A DNA stretch of 64,000 nucleotides from Anadara kagoshimensis (lineage: Eukaryota > Mollusca > Bivalvia > Arcoida > Arcidae). A model generated the notes under the pieces. That model was not told the DNA's origin and ran no database searches. It saw only the letters and a program-made list of their open reading frames with translations. Shown here piece by piece: positions 973 to 52,012 of this stretch. The stretch covers positions 10,860,721-10,924,720 of the forward strand of contig CM037867.1 in NCBI GenBank assembly GCA_021292105.1, read 5' to 3'. The translations under genes and the position numbers were made by a program. Position 1 is the first letter of the stretch; each line of letters begins with the position of its first letter.

Positions 973-2129
973 CCAAATTTGCCCTAAGGGCAACTAAGTT
1001 AGTTTTGTTCAAGGACCCATGAGGAAAAAACAACAGCAAAAAAAACTTCATAGGAATGAACATTTCTAAGTTCGTAAAATACCTATTCGACTATTCAGAC
1101 TGTCTTACTTTCAAATTTCTCAATAATATATATTTTGCATTTTCTCTTGTTGATTGTTTTTTTATTTGATAATGCACCACCATTTGAACAAAACTTAACC
1201 GGTCACAACGTCAGCGCAGAGTCGTAGAACGGTTAACAGTGCAATGTGCAATATAAAATGTACATAGCATACTCGTGTCATAATTACAATGCAAAATTAC
1301 CATATTCTGGCACGCTGTATAACATCGGTTTTAATTCTGTCTGGTCTAGTTCAAATTGTAAATTTTAACATTTCGTAAACCATATTCTTTTTAGTATGAA
1401 TTCAGAGGTTTACTTCCTATTGTCGTATCTTTGTCGTAAGGCAGTTTGTACTAGTTCATGCTTTTTATCTGCAAATCTTCTTTGTTTTGAAACTCACCAT
1501 GGTACTGAAGTTGGTAAAGTGTTAATTTCGAATGTGGGAGGTAAATTGTTCATCCGTTTTTCACTTAGACTTCAAAATCGTAGGTGAAGTATCTTATGCC
1601 AGGTACTCGACATTTTTAAAATGAATGTTTTAGGTTGAAGAATGATAATTTTGAAAGTCGATGCCGCGTATCGACGTAGAAATGGCATTAAAGCACTAAA
1701 ATGGTTAATGCTTAGATCGCATATAGGCCTAGCTTGTAGCAATTCCATAAAAGCATGGTGTTTTTGAAAGGAATATGAAACCCACTTTCATTCTATCAAA
1801 TTAACAAAATTTTTTGTTTTAAACAAAGAAAACACGTTGTCGATAGAGAACTTTATAGACACCCCTATATGCAATCATATAGATAATTAAAAAAAAAAAA
1901 CATAAGTAACAATATTGCAAAGTAGCTAGACCCTTTGAATTCAATATACAATCATTTTCATTGAAAGAGATAGTTGGTAGAAATCCTTAATAAAACAATC
2001 CTCCGTGATTGTACCTAGCTTATGTTTAATATGACTGATATAATCAGTATATATAAAAAGAAAGAAAATTGATATTTTCATGTCCCAAACATTAATATCA
2101 TAACAGATAAAGATATAATTTCATATTAT

Positions 2130-2320
2130 ACCAGTTTTAATTTTACAGCACTAGACGGCCGTTTCGGAATACAATTCCTCATCAGTAGTGCTTGGACCAA
2201 AATCATAAAACTAAAATTATTTTGAAGTAGTTAAAAAGCTTCCCAAAGGACCAAAATATATTTTACCAAATTCAGCTAAGGTAATACTTTGCATGAAGGA
2301 GTATACATGTACCTTGGTTT
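2130..2320 (-). repeat. retrozyme-like repeat unit carrying the intact hammerhead
   Basis: A ~190-bp segment from ATACCAG to about 2320. The part beyond the ribozyme, with CCAAAATATATTTT and a GGTAATACTTTGC motif, is partly shared with the copies near 9.84 and 10.03 kb. Its ends are not sharp, and no adjacent second unit is seen here. Confidence 0.5.
2140..2203 (-). ncRNA. hammerhead self-cleaving ribozyme, type I, complete core
   Basis: Read on the minus strand. Stem I AGCACTA (2192-2186) pairs with TAGTGCT (2153-2147) over 7 bp. Then come the core CTGATGA (2185-2179), stem-loop II GGAAT-TGT-ATTCC (2178-2166), GAAA (2165-2162), a tiny palindromic stem III ACGG/CCGT, and the cleavage triplet GTC, with cleavage expected between 2154 and 2153. 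All invariant core bases are present. Beyond an internal loop, ATTTT (2203-2199) can pair with AAAAT (2144-2140), giving the outer stem I that natural hammerheads use for the loop-loop contact. The open stem I makes it type I; the minimal stem III is typical of metazoan retrozymes and Penelope-linked hammerheads. It sits in a ~190-bp repeat (2130-2320). Confidence 0.88.
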
Positions 2321-2529
2321 TTTAAAATTTCAAATGTTAACTCGCAGGAAATTTAGACAATTATAGTATATTTCTGACAATACTACGAATAGTTTGTGAT
2401 ATCCTCGGGGCACCAGCCACCAGCAGAGATATCGGATCTTTATTTATAAAAAAGTTGAGGTTGTCATAACAGTATAGTCCATAAGTATAATAAATTTTAT
2501 CTAAAATTATCTTCGATGCATTTGTCGTG

Positions 2530-3570: not shown

Positions 3571-3629
3571 AAGTTGTAACCGTGTACATGATTTACAACG
3601 TGGTTGATATATGTCTAAGGTTTAGGAAC

Positions 3630-3675
3630 AGCACTACTGATAAGGCATTGTATTTCGAAACGGTCGTAATATGGT
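3630..3675 (+). ncRNA. degenerate hammerhead ribozyme copy
   Basis: Same order of elements as the copy at 2140-2203, on the opposite strand: AGCACTA (3630-3636), CTGATAA with one core base changed (3637-3643), a stem II-like GGCAT-TGT-ATTTC, then GAAA (3657-3660) and a short C-GGTC-G. The 3' half of stem I is lost and the cleavage base is A instead of C. It is probably inactive, a relic of the same repeat family. Confidence 0.6.
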
Positions 3676-9553: not shown

Positions 9554-9842
9554 TGTGATATTCAAATGATATAATTTTGCAATCATCCTTTTTAAAAACA
9601 TAAATATTACCTGTTATATATCTAGGAAGTATTTATGTTAAACAAAGTTAATGAAGATTGTTAAATTGCTATGATTTAAACATGGATCTTTATGTTTGTA
9701 ATATATTATTAGTGAAATGACTAGATGGATATTACCAATTTCCAATCATTTTTGAGATAGTGGGTAAAATACAAAATGTCTGCGTTGGTCATCGAGCTTG
9801 TGAACGTGTGAGCGTCTATGTGTGTAAATACATATAATACCA

Positions 9843-9912
9843 GTGTAAAGTTTTCAGCAGTAGACAACTGTTACGAAATAATTTCTCATCTGTAGTGTAT
9901 GGGCCAAAACTG
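9843..9912 (-). ncRNA. degenerate hammerhead ribozyme copy (first of a pair)
   Basis: On the minus strand: stem I (ACACTA against TACTGC), core CAGATGA (U4 changed), a weak stem II, GTAA in place of GAAA, and a terminal GTC before TAC. At least two core bases are substituted, so it is probably inactive. The flank ATACCAGT...TTTT corresponds to the flank of the intact copy. Confidence 0.55.
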
Positions 9913-10034
9913 TGAAACCAAAATATATTTTCTGACTACACAAAAGTATAACCTACTGAGTTTATCATACTCTCCGGGATTCTTAATCCACCAACGGAAA
10001 TACTTGTCTAGTGGTTTTAAATTAAAAATCATAC

Positions 10035-10105
10035 CAGTTTTAATTTACAACACTAGGTGGCCGTTTTGAAATACAATTCTAAATTAAAAGTACTTGTAAA
10101 ACATT
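10035..10105 (-). ncRNA. degenerate hammerhead ribozyme copy (second of a pair)
   Basis: It lies about 193 bp after the previous copy in the same orientation. The minus strand keeps stem II GAAT-TGT-ATTT, the A-CGGCC stem III region and the 3' arm TAGTGTT, but the CTGATGA box is lost and GAAA has become AAAA. The flank ATACCAGTTTTAATTTAC is nearly identical to that of the intact copy at 2130. Confidence 0.5.
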
Positions 10106-10989
10106 GTGAAACCTTAATTTTTAAGTGTTTAAAACTAGTACATAGTGTGTAATATTGTAACCTACAAATAAAATCGAAACCGAGTCTCAAATTTCTCTTA
10201 GCTCAAAGATCTAAATTAAGGTAACAATTAATAAGTAATTTGAGATGTTGAACGTGAATTTTGCCCGCCCGCTAAATGTGAAGGTTAGCAAAAAATCGGA
10301 TGTATAATTAATTCGGAAGCGATAGTGCTTGTAAACAAATTCAACACAATGCATATTAAAACTTAATATTGATTTGTTAAAAAACAAATGGTAATTAATT
10401 TCCATACATATTTAAAATAATGTAACAGTGCATTCTGCTCTTATTGCAATTAAACGTGAGAAAATCGTAAGGTTTCTCGCTAAATTTCATCTGAAAAAAT
10501 AAATATTATTTTTCTTTTTATACTAATGAAGGTCAGTGGTTGACAGTTTGTGTTTGAAATACTAACCTATCAAGATTATTTATCGTTGTTTTGAAAACAA
10601 AACAAACCCTGTCAACTAAGTTAATTCTATATTTAGCGACTAAATGTCTCTATGCTACCAAATCAATTAGTTTAAAAAGTGAAATAAAAACAATTATACA
10701 ATATTTGAACCTAAATAATCTAATTTTGTGTTTAAATTTTAGTAAGCTCATTTTGTTGAGAATATTTGTGACAGTGAGTTCCTTTGTATTTGCAACACTT
10801 CATTATTCCATCTATATTATAAATAATTTTAATTTCCTTTATCTAGGTTCTCGGAAAAAAATACTTATCTTAGTTAAAAGAATATACATTATATCAACTA
10901 AACTGTAAACCTTTTATACATTATTGTTTTACCCTTTTCTCTTAAAAAGTGGATTGATGGAAAGTGCAACCAAACCACTAGTAGCAATG

Positions 10990-34290: not shown

Positions 34291-34625
34291 AAAAACAAAC
34301 ATACTAACCCATGTCCGAGTCTCAATCCAGAAGCAAAGTAAAAACTTTTGAATGTCACGGTTAGACACGTGAACTGCCACCAGGTAAATGAGGTCGGATG
34401 CTCCGGAAGGTTAACCACCTGGTACATGTAAAGTCTTTGTTGTTTTTGTATAATTGAAACTGGTATAATACGTAATAATGAAAGGAACATGAGGATTTGA
34501 AACGTCAAATACATCCAGGATAATTTTAAATACAGAGACATAATTCTTAGTAACAAGTGTGATTACGACCATAGGATGTTTTGTAGGCCTTGATAAACCT
34601 ACTTGCAATATTCCTGAGTCAACAA
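34290..34625 (+). repeat. R1 copy, forward, second of a tandem pair
   Basis: AACAAACATACTAACCCATG, GGATGCTCCGGAAGGTTAAC, GAAACGTCAAATACATCCAG, GTGTGATTACGACCATAGG and ATTCCTGAGTCAACAATTTA. Segments a-c. Confidence 0.82.
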
Positions 34626-34997: not shown

Positions 34998-35450
34998 TTA
35001 CTTGACGTAATCCTCTGCGCCCTTGGAGGGGCATAGGGCCTCGACAATAACTCTCCATCTGTCCCGGCCAGGTGCAGCTCGTTTGGCCTCTCCCCATGAC
35101 ATCTGGATCAACCTCAGATCGCTGTCTAGTGTTCTTCGCCGCGTTGGTACTAGGCGCCCTCTCTTCCTCTTTCTTTGTGAGTTCCAGTTCAAAGCATGCT
35201 TCGTGATGTTTCCCTTTTCTCGTCTTAGGATGTGGCCAATCCATCGCCATTTCTTTTCTTTATTGTATCTGAAAATGATTTTGGTGTGTTTTTCTACATA
35301 GGTCCTGGTTCGATATTTTCTCAGGCCATCTGATTTTAAAGAGCTGTCTGAGACATTTATTAACAAAAACTTGGCGGTAATGTTCGTTCTTTTTTCTTTG
35401 TTTCCATGTCTCAGATCCATAGAGAAGGACAAACTGAACATTTGTTTCAA
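34998..35450 (-). pseudogene. C-terminal region of the broken RTE element
   Basis: A 150-codon piece containing YNKEKKWRWIGHILRREK, ITKHALNWNSQRKRKRGR and WRVIVEALCPSKGAEDYVK, the conserved tail downstream of RT in this lineage. It begins in a different frame from the RT piece, showing at least one indel between them. Confidence 0.85.
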
Positions 35451-35734
35451 AAATTCTGATCTTTGTCTTGAGGCTGATGTTACTGCTTTTCCAGATTAGT
35501 CTTAAGTAACAAATGCATGTCTGGCGTTTCCATGTCCTGGTCTGCGACCCCTATTTTATTTACAATACTTCCCAGATAGGTGAAGTTGTCTACATCTTCA
35601 ATGATTTTTACTTTCAAAATGAGAGGGAAGTCAATTTGTGCATTGGTTCGTAGGCACTTAACCTTTGCGGTATTTATTTCAAGCCCAGTAGATCTAGCAA
35701 CTGCTTGAAGTGACTATGTTTTCTGTTGCATATG

Positions 35735-36253
35735 TTAGAAAAGATATGACAGCAAGCTTACATCATCTGCGAAATCAAGGTCTTCTAGTTTTGATGTAAG
35801 CGTCCATTGGATTCCTCTAGCTGGTGACATGCTAGTTTTCATAATCCAGTCGATGACAAGAGAGAAGATCAGAGGTGATAGGAGACATCTTTGTCTGACG
35901 CCTGTGGCCACACTAAATGGTGGAGATAAAGAAGATACTTGACATGTGGTGTTGTTGTATAGTCCCTGGATGATCTTGACAATTTTTTCCGGGATACCAT
36001 AGTGTCGTAGAACTTTCCATAAGGTGCTACGGTCTATCATGTCAAATGCTTTCTTGAAGTTCACAAAATTGAAGTAAAGTGTTGACTGCCACTCAAGAGA
36101 TTGTTCTATAATAAGACGCAAGGTGGCAATTTGGTCTGTACATGAACGCCCGCACCTGAATCCTGCTTGTTCATCTCTCAGTTTTCCATCGATGGCATCC
36201 TTTGCTTGGTAGTGAGAGCAGTTGTATTCCTCTCCAGTTTTGACAATAACCAA
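35735..36253 (-). pseudogene. reverse transcriptase domain of the broken RTE element
   Basis: An open piece of 172 codons holds the fingers and palm: AGFRCGRSCTDQIATLR, FKKAFDMIDRSTLWKVLRHY, GVRQRCLLSP and DLDFADDVSLLS. The catalytic Asp of KKAFD and both Asp of FADD are kept. The usual GVRQGC glycine has become Arg (GVRQRC). The frame breaks right after FADD. Confidence 0.88.
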
Positions 36254-37099
36254 GACCTCCCTTCTTTGGTAGTTTCACAATAAACCCTGTTATCCAGTCT
36301 TCTGGTATTTGTTAACTTTTAAAAAATTCATCTAATAGGTCGTACAGAATGTTTGCTCTTGTTTCAGGACTTGCTTTTAGGGCTGGTGGAATGTAGCCTG
36401 GTCCTGGTGCTTTCTCATTCTTGAATTTTTCTGATGGCTTTATAATTTCATCTTTTGAGATGGTAGATAAGTCTATGTCTATGTGAGTATTGGCTACCTC
36501 TTTTCCATTTAGGAGGCTGCTGAAGTGCTCTTTTTATTTTTCCAATTGATGTTCAAGTTTTGATATAGTGTTGCCATTCTTATCTTTTACAGGTCTAGCT
36601 GTGTTAGTCTTTCTTCCTGCTATCTGTTTAGTGATGCTATAGAAGTTTTTGTGTCATTTCTTTTCATGGCATTTTCAGCTTGTGTAGCTAGTTGGTCAAT
36701 GTACATCTTTTTGTCATTCTTTGTTTTTTTTCTTTACTTCTTTTTTCAGCTCACTATGTTCTCTCATTAGCTTTTCGTTCTTTGCTCTCGATTATGCCTG
36801 GTCAAGTTGGATCTTTGCTTTTCTTCCTTTTTCAATTGTTTCTATAGTGCTGTCAGACAGCCAGATCTTGTACTGTCTAGAGTTGTAACCCAGTTCTTCT
36901 TTACACGTGGTGGTAAATGTCTGTTTTACTCTTTCCCATTAATTTTCTAATGTACCATCTTCAACATCCGCAAGTGGTTGAAAACGATTGCTTAGCTTGA
37001 TGGTAAATTTGTTTCCATCCTTAAATCTTTCGATGTTGTATCGCTTGCCCATTTGTCCACCATGCTTGATTGCTCTTGCAATTTTGATCTTACACTTTG

Positions 37100-37800
37100 C
37101 AACAACGAGTTCGTGGTCAGATCCAACATCAGAACCTCTAAAGACCCTGACATCCTGTAAGGTTTTACTCCATCTCCTGGCTATAGTGATATGGTCTATT
37201 TGGTTTTGCCATCTGGTGATGACTATGTTGTTTTGTGAATGTTATTGTGAGGGAACATTCTTCTACCAATCACGAAATCGTTTTGTGCACACACATCTGC
37301 AAATAGTTCGCCATTATCATTGATGGTTCCTATGTCTTCCTTCCCCATGATGGTTTCTCTACCTGTGTTGTCCCCTCCAACTTTGGCGTTCATGTCCCCC
37401 ATTAAAATTAGTATGTCTTTTGGTGTTACGGCATTGACAGTGGTTTAAAGTTGGTCAGAAATTTTCTTTGTCTTCTTCCTCTGCCATGTTGGTAGGTGCA
37501 TGTATGATGGTAACTTTCTTAATCTTTGACATAAAGCAAGCAACAATGATCCTTTCGCTTACTGGTTCCCATTCCATTAGTGATGCTTTTGCCTTTTTAC
37601 TGAGAAGAATGCCAACTTCATTGTTGTGATGGTAGTTTTCATTTGGTGGTCCTGGGAATAGTAAAGTATGGCCTGAAGTAAGAGACACAATTCCAGATGT
37701 TGACCAGGGATCTTCACTGAGTCCCAATATTTCTAACTCAAATCTGTCTATCTCTCTTGCCACCTGGGCTGACCTCCCTGTTTCGTGAAGTGCTCTCACA
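37100..37800 (-). pseudogene. endonuclease (EEP) domain of the broken RTE element
   Basis: The longest open piece runs 37799-37455; the domain continues in another frame to about 37100 with GDMNAKVGGDNTGRET and DNGELFADVCAQ. EEP enzymes nick target DNA to prime reverse transcription. It is related to the proteins often misnamed craniofacial development protein 2-like. Confidence 0.85.
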
Positions 37801-38420
37801 TTTCAACATACAATCCGTGAGACGGTCTTAGGCGAGAGAAGATGCATCGGTGAATTTCTCCACTTCATTCGCTCTCCCCTGGGTCGATTCCGTAATCTAT
37901 TTGAAGTATTTTCTATTGTCTCAGTTTCTGTAACTAAGTGTCTTTTTACGGGGTAGAGCGGTTTACACTACGCCAAACTTCCACTCCGTTGGACCAGGTT
38001 TGTTCTCTGGGTATGACGTTCTTTTAGACGGTTGCAGAGCCAACTGTTAACGAGCTCCATCTACCCGGATTTTCTTTCTGGGTTTACTCCCATAGCCTTT
38101 GACTCTCCCAAGTCATCTAAAAAGTAGTAGAGCTATTTCACCCAAAGCTGGACCAAGGTTGATGAATGCTATGGCATATCCACACACCGGTGGGCCTACA
38201 CACTGCATCTCTAGGGTCCTTGGTTCTCCGAGTATTTTATTTTCAATATTGAATAATGCATTTTAGACATTGTTAAAAAATTAATAATACTATTGTGTAT
38301 GTTTGTGTTGAGAGATAATTGACAAATCGCCGGTCACGCCCACAATGTTCCGACATGGACACGTATGCTTGAATTGCACACAAAAAGAATGAAAACTCGA
38401 CCTGAATTGTGACATTTGAT

Positions 38421-51290: not shown

Positions 51291-52012
51291 TAGCATTGTT
51301 GTTTTTAGAGGTGTTTCTGGGAGTGTGGGCCGAGGATTGTTGTTTTTAGAGGTGTTTCCGGGAGTGTGGGCGAGCATTGTTGTTTTTAGAGGTGTTTCCG
51401 GGAGTGTTGGCGGGCATTGTTGTTTGTATAGGTGTTTCCGGGAGTGTTGGCGAGCATTGTTGTTTGTATAGGTGTTTCCGGGAGTGTTGGCGGGCATTGT
51501 TGTTTTTAGAGGTGTTTCCGGGAGTGTTGGCGAGCATTGTTGTTTTTAGAGGTGTTTCCGGGAATGTGGGCGGGCATTGTTGTTTTTAGAGGTGTTTCCG
51601 GGAGTGTTGGCGAGCATTGTTGTTTTTAGAGGTGTTTCCGGGAGTGTTGGCGAGCATTGTTGTTTGTATAGGTGTTTCCGGGAGTGTTGGCGGGCATTGT
51701 TGTTTTTTAGAGGTGTTTCCGGGAATGTGGGCGAGCACTGTTGTTTTTTAGAGGTGTTTCCGGGAATGTGGGCGAGCACTGTTGTCTTTAGAGATGTTTC
51801 CGTGGGTGTGGGCGAGCATTGTTGTTTTTAGAGGTGTTTCCGGGAGTGTGGGCGAGCATTGTTGGTTTAAGAGGTGTTTCCGGGAGTGTGAGCGAGCATT
51901 CGTGTTTTTAGAGGTGTTTCCGGGAGTGTGGGCGGGTATTGTTTGTTTTTAGAGATGTTTCCGCGAGTGTGGGCTAGCATTGTTGTTTTTAGAGGTGTTT
52001 CCGGGAGTGTAG
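51291..52012. repeat. 40-bp minisatellite, 18 units
   Basis: Head-to-tail units of 40 bp (plus-strand parts GCATTGTTGTTTTTAGAGG, TGTTTCCGGGAGTG and TTGGCGA). Variants alternate between TTTTTAGAGG and TTTGTATAGG and between GTTGG and GTGGG; a few units have 1-bp insertions. Because 40 is not a multiple of three, reading frames cycle every three units; the long open frames seen on both strands are a by-product. It is GC-richer than its surroundings. Confidence 0.95.

Follow-up and report, generated by a model that had tools for sequence, protein, structure and literature searches.

Results

A type I hammerhead ribozyme in the window

The stretch of DNA analysed in this study (64 kb, positions 10860721-10924720 of contig C11 in the 1.115-Gb, 36-contig genome of Anadara kagoshimensis; hereafter the window) carries on its minus strand a 46-nt type I hammerhead ribozyme (2147-2192), the sole match in the window to a strict hammerhead descriptor. 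In minus-strand order, it comprises the 5' strand of stem I (AGCACTA; 2186-2192), the core box CTGATGA (2179-2185), stem II (GGAAT-TGT-ATTCC, 5 bp with a 3-nt loop; 2166-2178, also visible in aligned copies), a segment with GAAA, stem III (ACGGCCGT) and C17, which ends in GTC (2154-2165), and the 3' strand of stem I (TAGTGCT; 2147-2153). The sequence and the Rfam alignment place the predicted cut between 2154 and 2153. Both the letters and the descriptor scan revealed the complete type I core, i.e. CUGANGA, GAAA and UH at the cut site, together with three helices, of which stem I is open. Stem III consists of 2 bp with a tetraloop and is palindromic. An earlier note on this DNA had recognized a minus-strand type I hammerhead with all core letters, a 7-bp stem I (AGCACTA/TAGTGCT) and a 5-bp stem II with a 3-nt loop, and our analysis bears this out; its comparison of the very short palindromic stem III with those of metazoan retrozyme hammerheads is likewise supported.

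The outer 5-bp extension of stem I suspected in the same note is present in the sequence as the helix ATTTT/AAAAT (2199-2203 with 2140-2144), which gave the earlier limits of 2140-2203. Beyond it, a second outer helix, AGTTTTA/TAAAACT, may be formed by 2206-2212 and 2133-2139. The 5' strands of the two helices (2199-2212) are indicated by the sequence and by the consensus fold of 18 chosen copies. Their predicted 3' strands lie within the tail (2117-2146, minus strand), a segment running from +8 to +37 past the cut site, between stem I and the common 3' end of the family, as delimited by the end positions of the anchored copies (see below).

Presented with 81 nt, the Rfam model Hammerhead_1 (RF00163) produced a score of 28.1 bits (E = 1.2e-5; cut-off, 34). 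This was the covariance-model check of the minus strand proposed in the earlier note. A gathering-threshold scan of the whole 64-kb window listed a tRNA only and no hammerhead, and no hammerhead was listed in an E-value scan of 601 nt around the site. The search of the whole genome with RF00163 returned nothing at E<=0.001; only 73 of 112,716 candidates were scored in this search, so it does not demonstrate absence. The hammerhead of the window is therefore below the threshold for Rfam membership, while the descriptor and the genomic family indicate that it is built like a type I ribozyme. The single descriptor match in 64 kb compares with a mean of 0.01 expected from 300 simulated windows (first-order Markov). 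The folding energy of the 53-nt strand was unremarkable (z = -1.65, with 15 of 200 shuffles equally good), and the single-strand fold places three core bases in extra pairs.

All five pairs of stem II are retained in 85-91 of the 91-92 aligned copies. When 92 copies were analysed with RNAalifold, no structure was obtained (0.0 kcal/mol). The consensus fold of the 18 chosen copies predicted the extended stem I and stem II, with extra pairs in the catalytic core, seen in the single-strand fold as well, that replace the stem III needed by a hammerhead; since these pairs stand where stem III should be, the consensus structure lends weak support. The covariation term was 0.01 in these 18 copies, which are too alike, and the extended stem I has the standing of a prediction. 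At the second pair of stem II, A accounts for 78 of the 100 variants listed (197 in all); a compensating T was present in 5 of these 78 A-variants and in none of the other 22 listed. In the sample that was not chosen by the core, mismatches were found at 3 of 318 positions of the catalytic core and at 132 of 5,521 positions elsewhere, a difference that is not significant (Fisher p = 0.12). Judging by these sequences, single copies appear to decay without clear constraint, which is the expectation for mostly dead insertions.

The retrozyme insertion and its relatives in the window

The ribozyme is part of a single retrozyme insertion of 322 bp (2117-2438, minus strand), delimited by BLASTN with an array consensus and by junctions common to a second locus. 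Its 5' end (2438) corresponds to position 47 of the repeat unit, from which the copy runs through position 338 to a 3' end (2117) at +37. The consensus of the array at locus L009 and the window copy are identical at 298 of 336 positions (88.7%, 21 gap positions; BLASTN), and the ribozyme of the copy equals the family consensus letter for letter. Locus L002 (C11:12545403-12548597), on the same contig at a distance of 1.68 Mb, has identical insertion junctions, which implies that the insertion predates a segmental duplication. The duplicated segment holding the insertion extends from about 1091 to at least 3819 in the window (93% identity to L002 over 2.76 kb). The loop of stem III in L002 differs from that of the window copy.

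The hammerhead had been assigned to a repeat of about 190 bp. We reject a unit of this size, as the window copy is homologous over 322 bp (2117-2438) and the spacing of full units in arrays is 336-340 bp. In the window, a spacing of 193-195 bp occurs solely between two decayed relatives arranged in tandem on the minus strand and identified by BLASTN and sequence inspection, at 9825-9931 (76% identical, hammerhead not intact) and 10018-10134 (73% identical). By eye, this pair (9825-10134) looks as if it were built of a shorter unit, without about 145 nt of the 338-bp one. The same methods revealed two plus-strand fragments. A decayed hammerhead (3616-3667) with the core box CTGATAA (81% identity over 53 columns) is the nearest BLAST relative of the insertion within the window, 1.4 kb off and on the opposite strand, and a 33-bp piece of the tail (85% identical) is located at 34447-34479. 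A further repeat of the window, at 51292-52010, is a 40-bp tandem repeat (17.9 copies, 91% matches) in a region with a strong skew of G over C.

The earlier note had also proposed that this copy could give rise to small, possibly circular, self-cleaved RNA. This is not supported: two hammerheads in tandem are needed, and the window copy, having only one, cannot release a monomer or a circle alone. Judging by its sequence, it could cut a read-through transcript at most once. It is probably a dead end, just under one turn long and with a single hammerhead.

A genome-wide family of dispersed copies and arrays

Genome-wide, 10,421 matches to the 32-nt core were counted (<=2 mismatches; reversed-pattern control, 0), and a 30-mer from the region upstream of the hammerhead gave 5,382 (<=3 mismatches; control, 0). 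A 201-base query gave at least 40 matches of 90-100% identity, its own place included, among the best 40 of 1,964 candidates. Elsewhere in the genome, full units 336-340 bp apart form head-to-tail arrays of an element of about 338 bp; the largest among the loci read (e.g. L009 and L029) hold five units. With 34.6% G+C and a longest stop-to-stop stretch of 65 codons, the unit is AT-rich and non-coding. Single-hammerhead, dispersed elements account for 60 of the 86 in the BLAST map.

The metazoan retrozymes are characterized by type I hammerheads in units of 150-450 bp, arranged in tandem as dimers to multimers, by low G+C content and by absence of a protein; the arrays show this organization (34.6% G+C, at most 65 codons), the window copy being a single one. 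The element of the window thus fits a metazoan-type non-LTR retrozyme of about 338 nt, in which each unit carries a single type I hammerhead. Other hallmarks of the group are the lack of long terminal repeats, of a primer-binding site and of a polypurine tract, target duplications that exceed 4 bp where they occur, and expression as linear and circular RNA.

Eleven arrays had comparable units and ten were scored. Within eight of these ten, units differ by 0.3-3.0%, the mean for first units compared across arrays being 4.4% (Mann-Whitney p = 0.003, all 10 arrays included). The two remaining values (25% in L039 and 19% in L058) come from loci where, according to BLAST, separate elements had been joined by the aligner. 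The arrays L009 and L011 have five and four units, respectively, and comparison of their flanks showed 17 differences in 417 positions and 1 in 400; L068 has the same junctions and two units. Since these duplicated loci hold 5, 4 and 2 units, units are also gained or lost after insertion, and therefore not every multimer directly records reverse transcription. Such post-insertion change concerns whole units, and leaves fractional 5' ends and the common 3' end unaffected.

A common 3' end and scattered 5' ends

The boundaries of the copies were mapped in two samples of 30 loci each. Sample 1 (L059-L088) was selected with an exact 30-mer at unit positions 225-254, i.e. 46-75 nt upstream of the hammerhead, which makes it independent of the hammerhead and the tail; sample 2 (L029-L058) was selected with the exact core, as the first 30 matches listed on contig C1. 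After overlapping loci of one array had been joined, 18 elements of sample 1 and 24 of sample 2 had a readable 3' boundary.

In 38 of these 42 anchored copies (18/18 in sample 1 and 20/24 in sample 2), the 3' end falls between +35 and +44 past the cut site, most frequently at +37 (...TATAATATGTAATT). Seventeen of the 18 copies of sample 1 are independent, as L059 and L068 have both junction sequences in common. The exceptions, all in sample 2, end at 19 (L034), 27 (L043), 208 (L036, where another copy interrupts) and 324 (L049). None of the 42 3' ends, and none of the 5' starts of the 41 copies with a readable 5' boundary, falls within 3 nt of the cut site. A BLAST-based count for the first 88 loci, some of which had been found with a tail-containing query, placed 69 of 86 3' ends at 35-44. 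The prevalent end, about +37, is located 16 nt past the foot of the predicted extended stem I.

By contrast with this common 3' end, the 5' ends are scattered. A uniform spread fits them (Kolmogorov-Smirnov p = 0.28 for n = 17 and 0.74 for n = 20), in samples small enough for mild preferences to escape, and the lengths of the copies fit an exponential distribution (p = 0.48 and 0.39). Among copies with both boundaries, 6/17 and 6/23 are longer than one unit; eight copies ending near +37 are 1.04-1.46 units long. Moreover, the bases past +37 tend to continue the unit sequence: over six positions in 38 copies there were 90 matches against 63.3 expected (z = 4.0, first of 338 offsets, the next reaching 3.55; within-flank shuffle p = 4e-4).

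Target-site duplications remained mostly undetected, flank matches of at least 10 being found in 6 of 72 insertions, compared with 1.5% of shuffled pairs. In three loci (L036, L076 and L080), retrozyme copies seem to have been inserted into older retrozyme copies of opposite orientation; the two halves of the interrupted copy in L036 have 8 positions in common, an overlap of the kind that target duplication leaves. Head-to-head insertion was considered as a Penelope-like trait, but L036 and L076 are better read as insertion into an older copy on the opposite strand.

Search for the mobilizing element

The retrozyme unit does not itself qualify as a Penelope-like element: it contains no reverse transcriptase with GIY-YIG, and no stop-to-stop stretch exceeds 65 codons. 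A GIY-YIG profile search of the genome gave 50 matches. Three Penelope-like loci from among these 50, inspected over 3.5-6 kb, showed no hammerhead belonging to the element itself. A decayed retrozyme copy is located about 1 kb past the end of the open reading frame in one of them (L095), and in another (L093) Pfam confirmed both the reverse transcriptase and the GIY-YIG domain. The latter holds a 762-aa RT/GIY-YIG element (L093:1039-5151) with a 489-nt inverted copy of its 3' part (99% complementary), and the 3' ends of the element and of the inverted copy both point outward. The 50 GIY-YIG matches include six opposite-strand pairs 2-5 kb apart, some of which are apparently mutual copies. In the window, a fragment of a reverse transcriptase is encoded on the minus strand at 35735-36274 (RVT_1, E = 1.9e-12), and further open frames matching no Pfam family are present at 34998-35495 and 37455-37802.

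We also looked for another family with the same 3' tail. Among the matches listed, which are the first of 4,901, variants of the hammerhead predominate. Nine listed tail matches do not, by eye, have the 3' strand of stem I; the four stretches read, two of which represent one duplicated locus, resemble truncated or inverted tails and not a shared partner.

Discussion

Retrozymes of Metazoa have been described (Cervera and de la Pena 2020, PMC7229834) as type I hammerheads in AT-rich tandem repeats of 150-450 bp, present in thousands of copies. According to this source, the genome of Mytilus galloprovincialis has about 5000 hammerheads in repeats of about 350-390 bp, circular retrozyme RNA occurs in tissues of mussel, coral and axolotl, most invertebrate retrozymes self-cleave efficiently, and a 2-bp stem III with a tetraloop is likened to invertebrate hammerheads. 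For the window copy, the earlier note had predicted weak monomer activity from the shortness of stem III. The element described here resembles these non-LTR retrozymes in its type I hammerhead and its tandem, AT-rich units, its unit length and copy number (about 338 bp; 10,421) standing beside those of the mussel (about 350-390 bp; about 5000); the likeness to the Mytilus galloprovincialis elements is one of description and not of sequence comparison.

Two other groups of hammerhead-bearing elements are discussed in PMC7761336. The retrozymes of plants have long terminal repeats, type III hammerheads and 4-bp target duplications. The element of the window is similar to them in being non-autonomous and hammerhead-bearing, with a proposed circular RNA intermediate, but differs in the type of its hammerhead (type I). 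The second group comprises the Penelope-like elements and Terminons, which carry minimal type I hammerheads and are put forward as likely movers of the metazoan retrozymes. As described there, their hammerheads are without helix III nucleotides, whereas that of the window has a 2-bp stem III with a tetraloop; they also code for a reverse transcriptase, while the retrozyme unit codes for no long protein. According to the same source, the repeats of metazoans have no conserved motif that would allow the moving element to be deduced.

The best explanation of the observed features, to which we assign a probability of roughly three in four, is a circular-RNA retrozyme life cycle, with the window copy as a solo insertion. 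Arrays of at least two units would be transcribed, and each hammerhead would cut the RNA at ...GUC|UAGUGCU.... The cleaved monomers would be ligated into circles, as analogy with known retrozymes suggests; multi-unit arrays elsewhere in the genome (e.g. L009 and L029) are plausible sources of such circles. By the same analogy, a reverse transcriptase supplied by another element would copy the circle, and we infer that this mobilizing enzyme may be primed at the target. A life cycle of this sort, in which a circular template yields tandem cDNA, is proposed in PMC7229834. The present analysis adds that copying would start at a fixed place, about 37 nt beyond the old cut site, and continue to or past one turn, with drop-off at no fixed place. 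Copies made in this way would finish at the same 3' sequence (...TATAATATGTAATT), would begin at various 5' positions and would include head-to-tail multimers. The scarcity of target duplications weakens the target-priming part of this model, or points to unusual target cuts.

A linear self-cleaved monomer is excluded as the template, since such an RNA ends at the cut site and the insertions run 37 nt past it; therefore the template has to carry the joined junction, either as a circle or as an uncleaved multimer. SINEs and LINEs, too, typically have scattered 5' ends but a 3' end that does not vary. The pattern observed here could accordingly have been produced by SINE-like reverse transcription of linear multimeric transcripts that had stayed uncleaved and acquired their 3' end near +37, the circles being a by-product, and multi-unit transcripts of this kind could yield copies longer than one unit. 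We consider this unlikely. Such a transcript would need to avoid cleavage despite its intact ribozyme, no pile-up of 5' ends marks a transcript start in the 17 and 20 copies analysed, and the unit sequence continues past +37, as if the template often extended beyond this point. The circle is favoured because of the fractional lengths above one unit, the absence of a 5' pile-up and the continuation past +37. On balance, we lean towards the interpretation that the insertions record reverse transcription of ribozyme-made circles, with a fixed entry about 37 nt past the junction and rolling for more than one turn possible.

Explanations that give the ribozyme no part in the process fare considerably worse. 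Head-to-tail arrays of similar units are also what ordinary satellite DNA would form by unequal crossing-over or through DNA circles, with the hammerhead playing no role in the spread, and the duplicated loci with equal junctions do vary in unit number (5, 4 and 2). However, 60 of the 86 elements of the BLAST map are dispersed and have a single hammerhead, and anchored copies at different flanks have one 3' end in common. Moreover, crossing-over cannot turn a copy shorter than one unit into the first copy exceeding one unit, and eight copies of 1.04-1.46 units were observed; a satellite origin is thus very improbable. Even less credible is the assumption that the sequence at 2147-2192 resembles a hammerhead by chance, or has decayed and lost the ability to cleave. 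The Rfam score under the cut-off (28.1 vs 34) and the unremarkable fold energy would agree with it, but only 0.01 descriptor matches are expected per window, the 32-nt core recurs 10,421 times with at most two mismatches, and the ribozyme is identical to the consensus letter for letter in a copy whose overall identity is 88.7%.

Both the kind of element described here and the proposal of a circular template are known; what this study adds is the anatomy of the insertions, with a shared 3' end beyond the cut site. In the main text of PMC7229834 we did not find a description of a fixed 3' end past the cut, scattered 5' ends or fractional lengths. No published end map of retrozyme copies was found in our literature search, which did not extend to bioRxiv and most subscription journals.

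Despite the abundance of circular retrozyme RNAs, the way in which metazoan retrozymes re-enter the genome has so far been inferred. That the copies have a 3' end in common beyond the cut site speaks against a linear self-cleaved RNA as the template, and the segment from +8 to +37 is a short, defined candidate stretch for binding and priming by the enzyme. If the insertions do record entry into the circle at one fixed place, this place would provide the sequence signal that has been missing for metazoan retrozymes, and could help to name the enzyme that mobilizes them.
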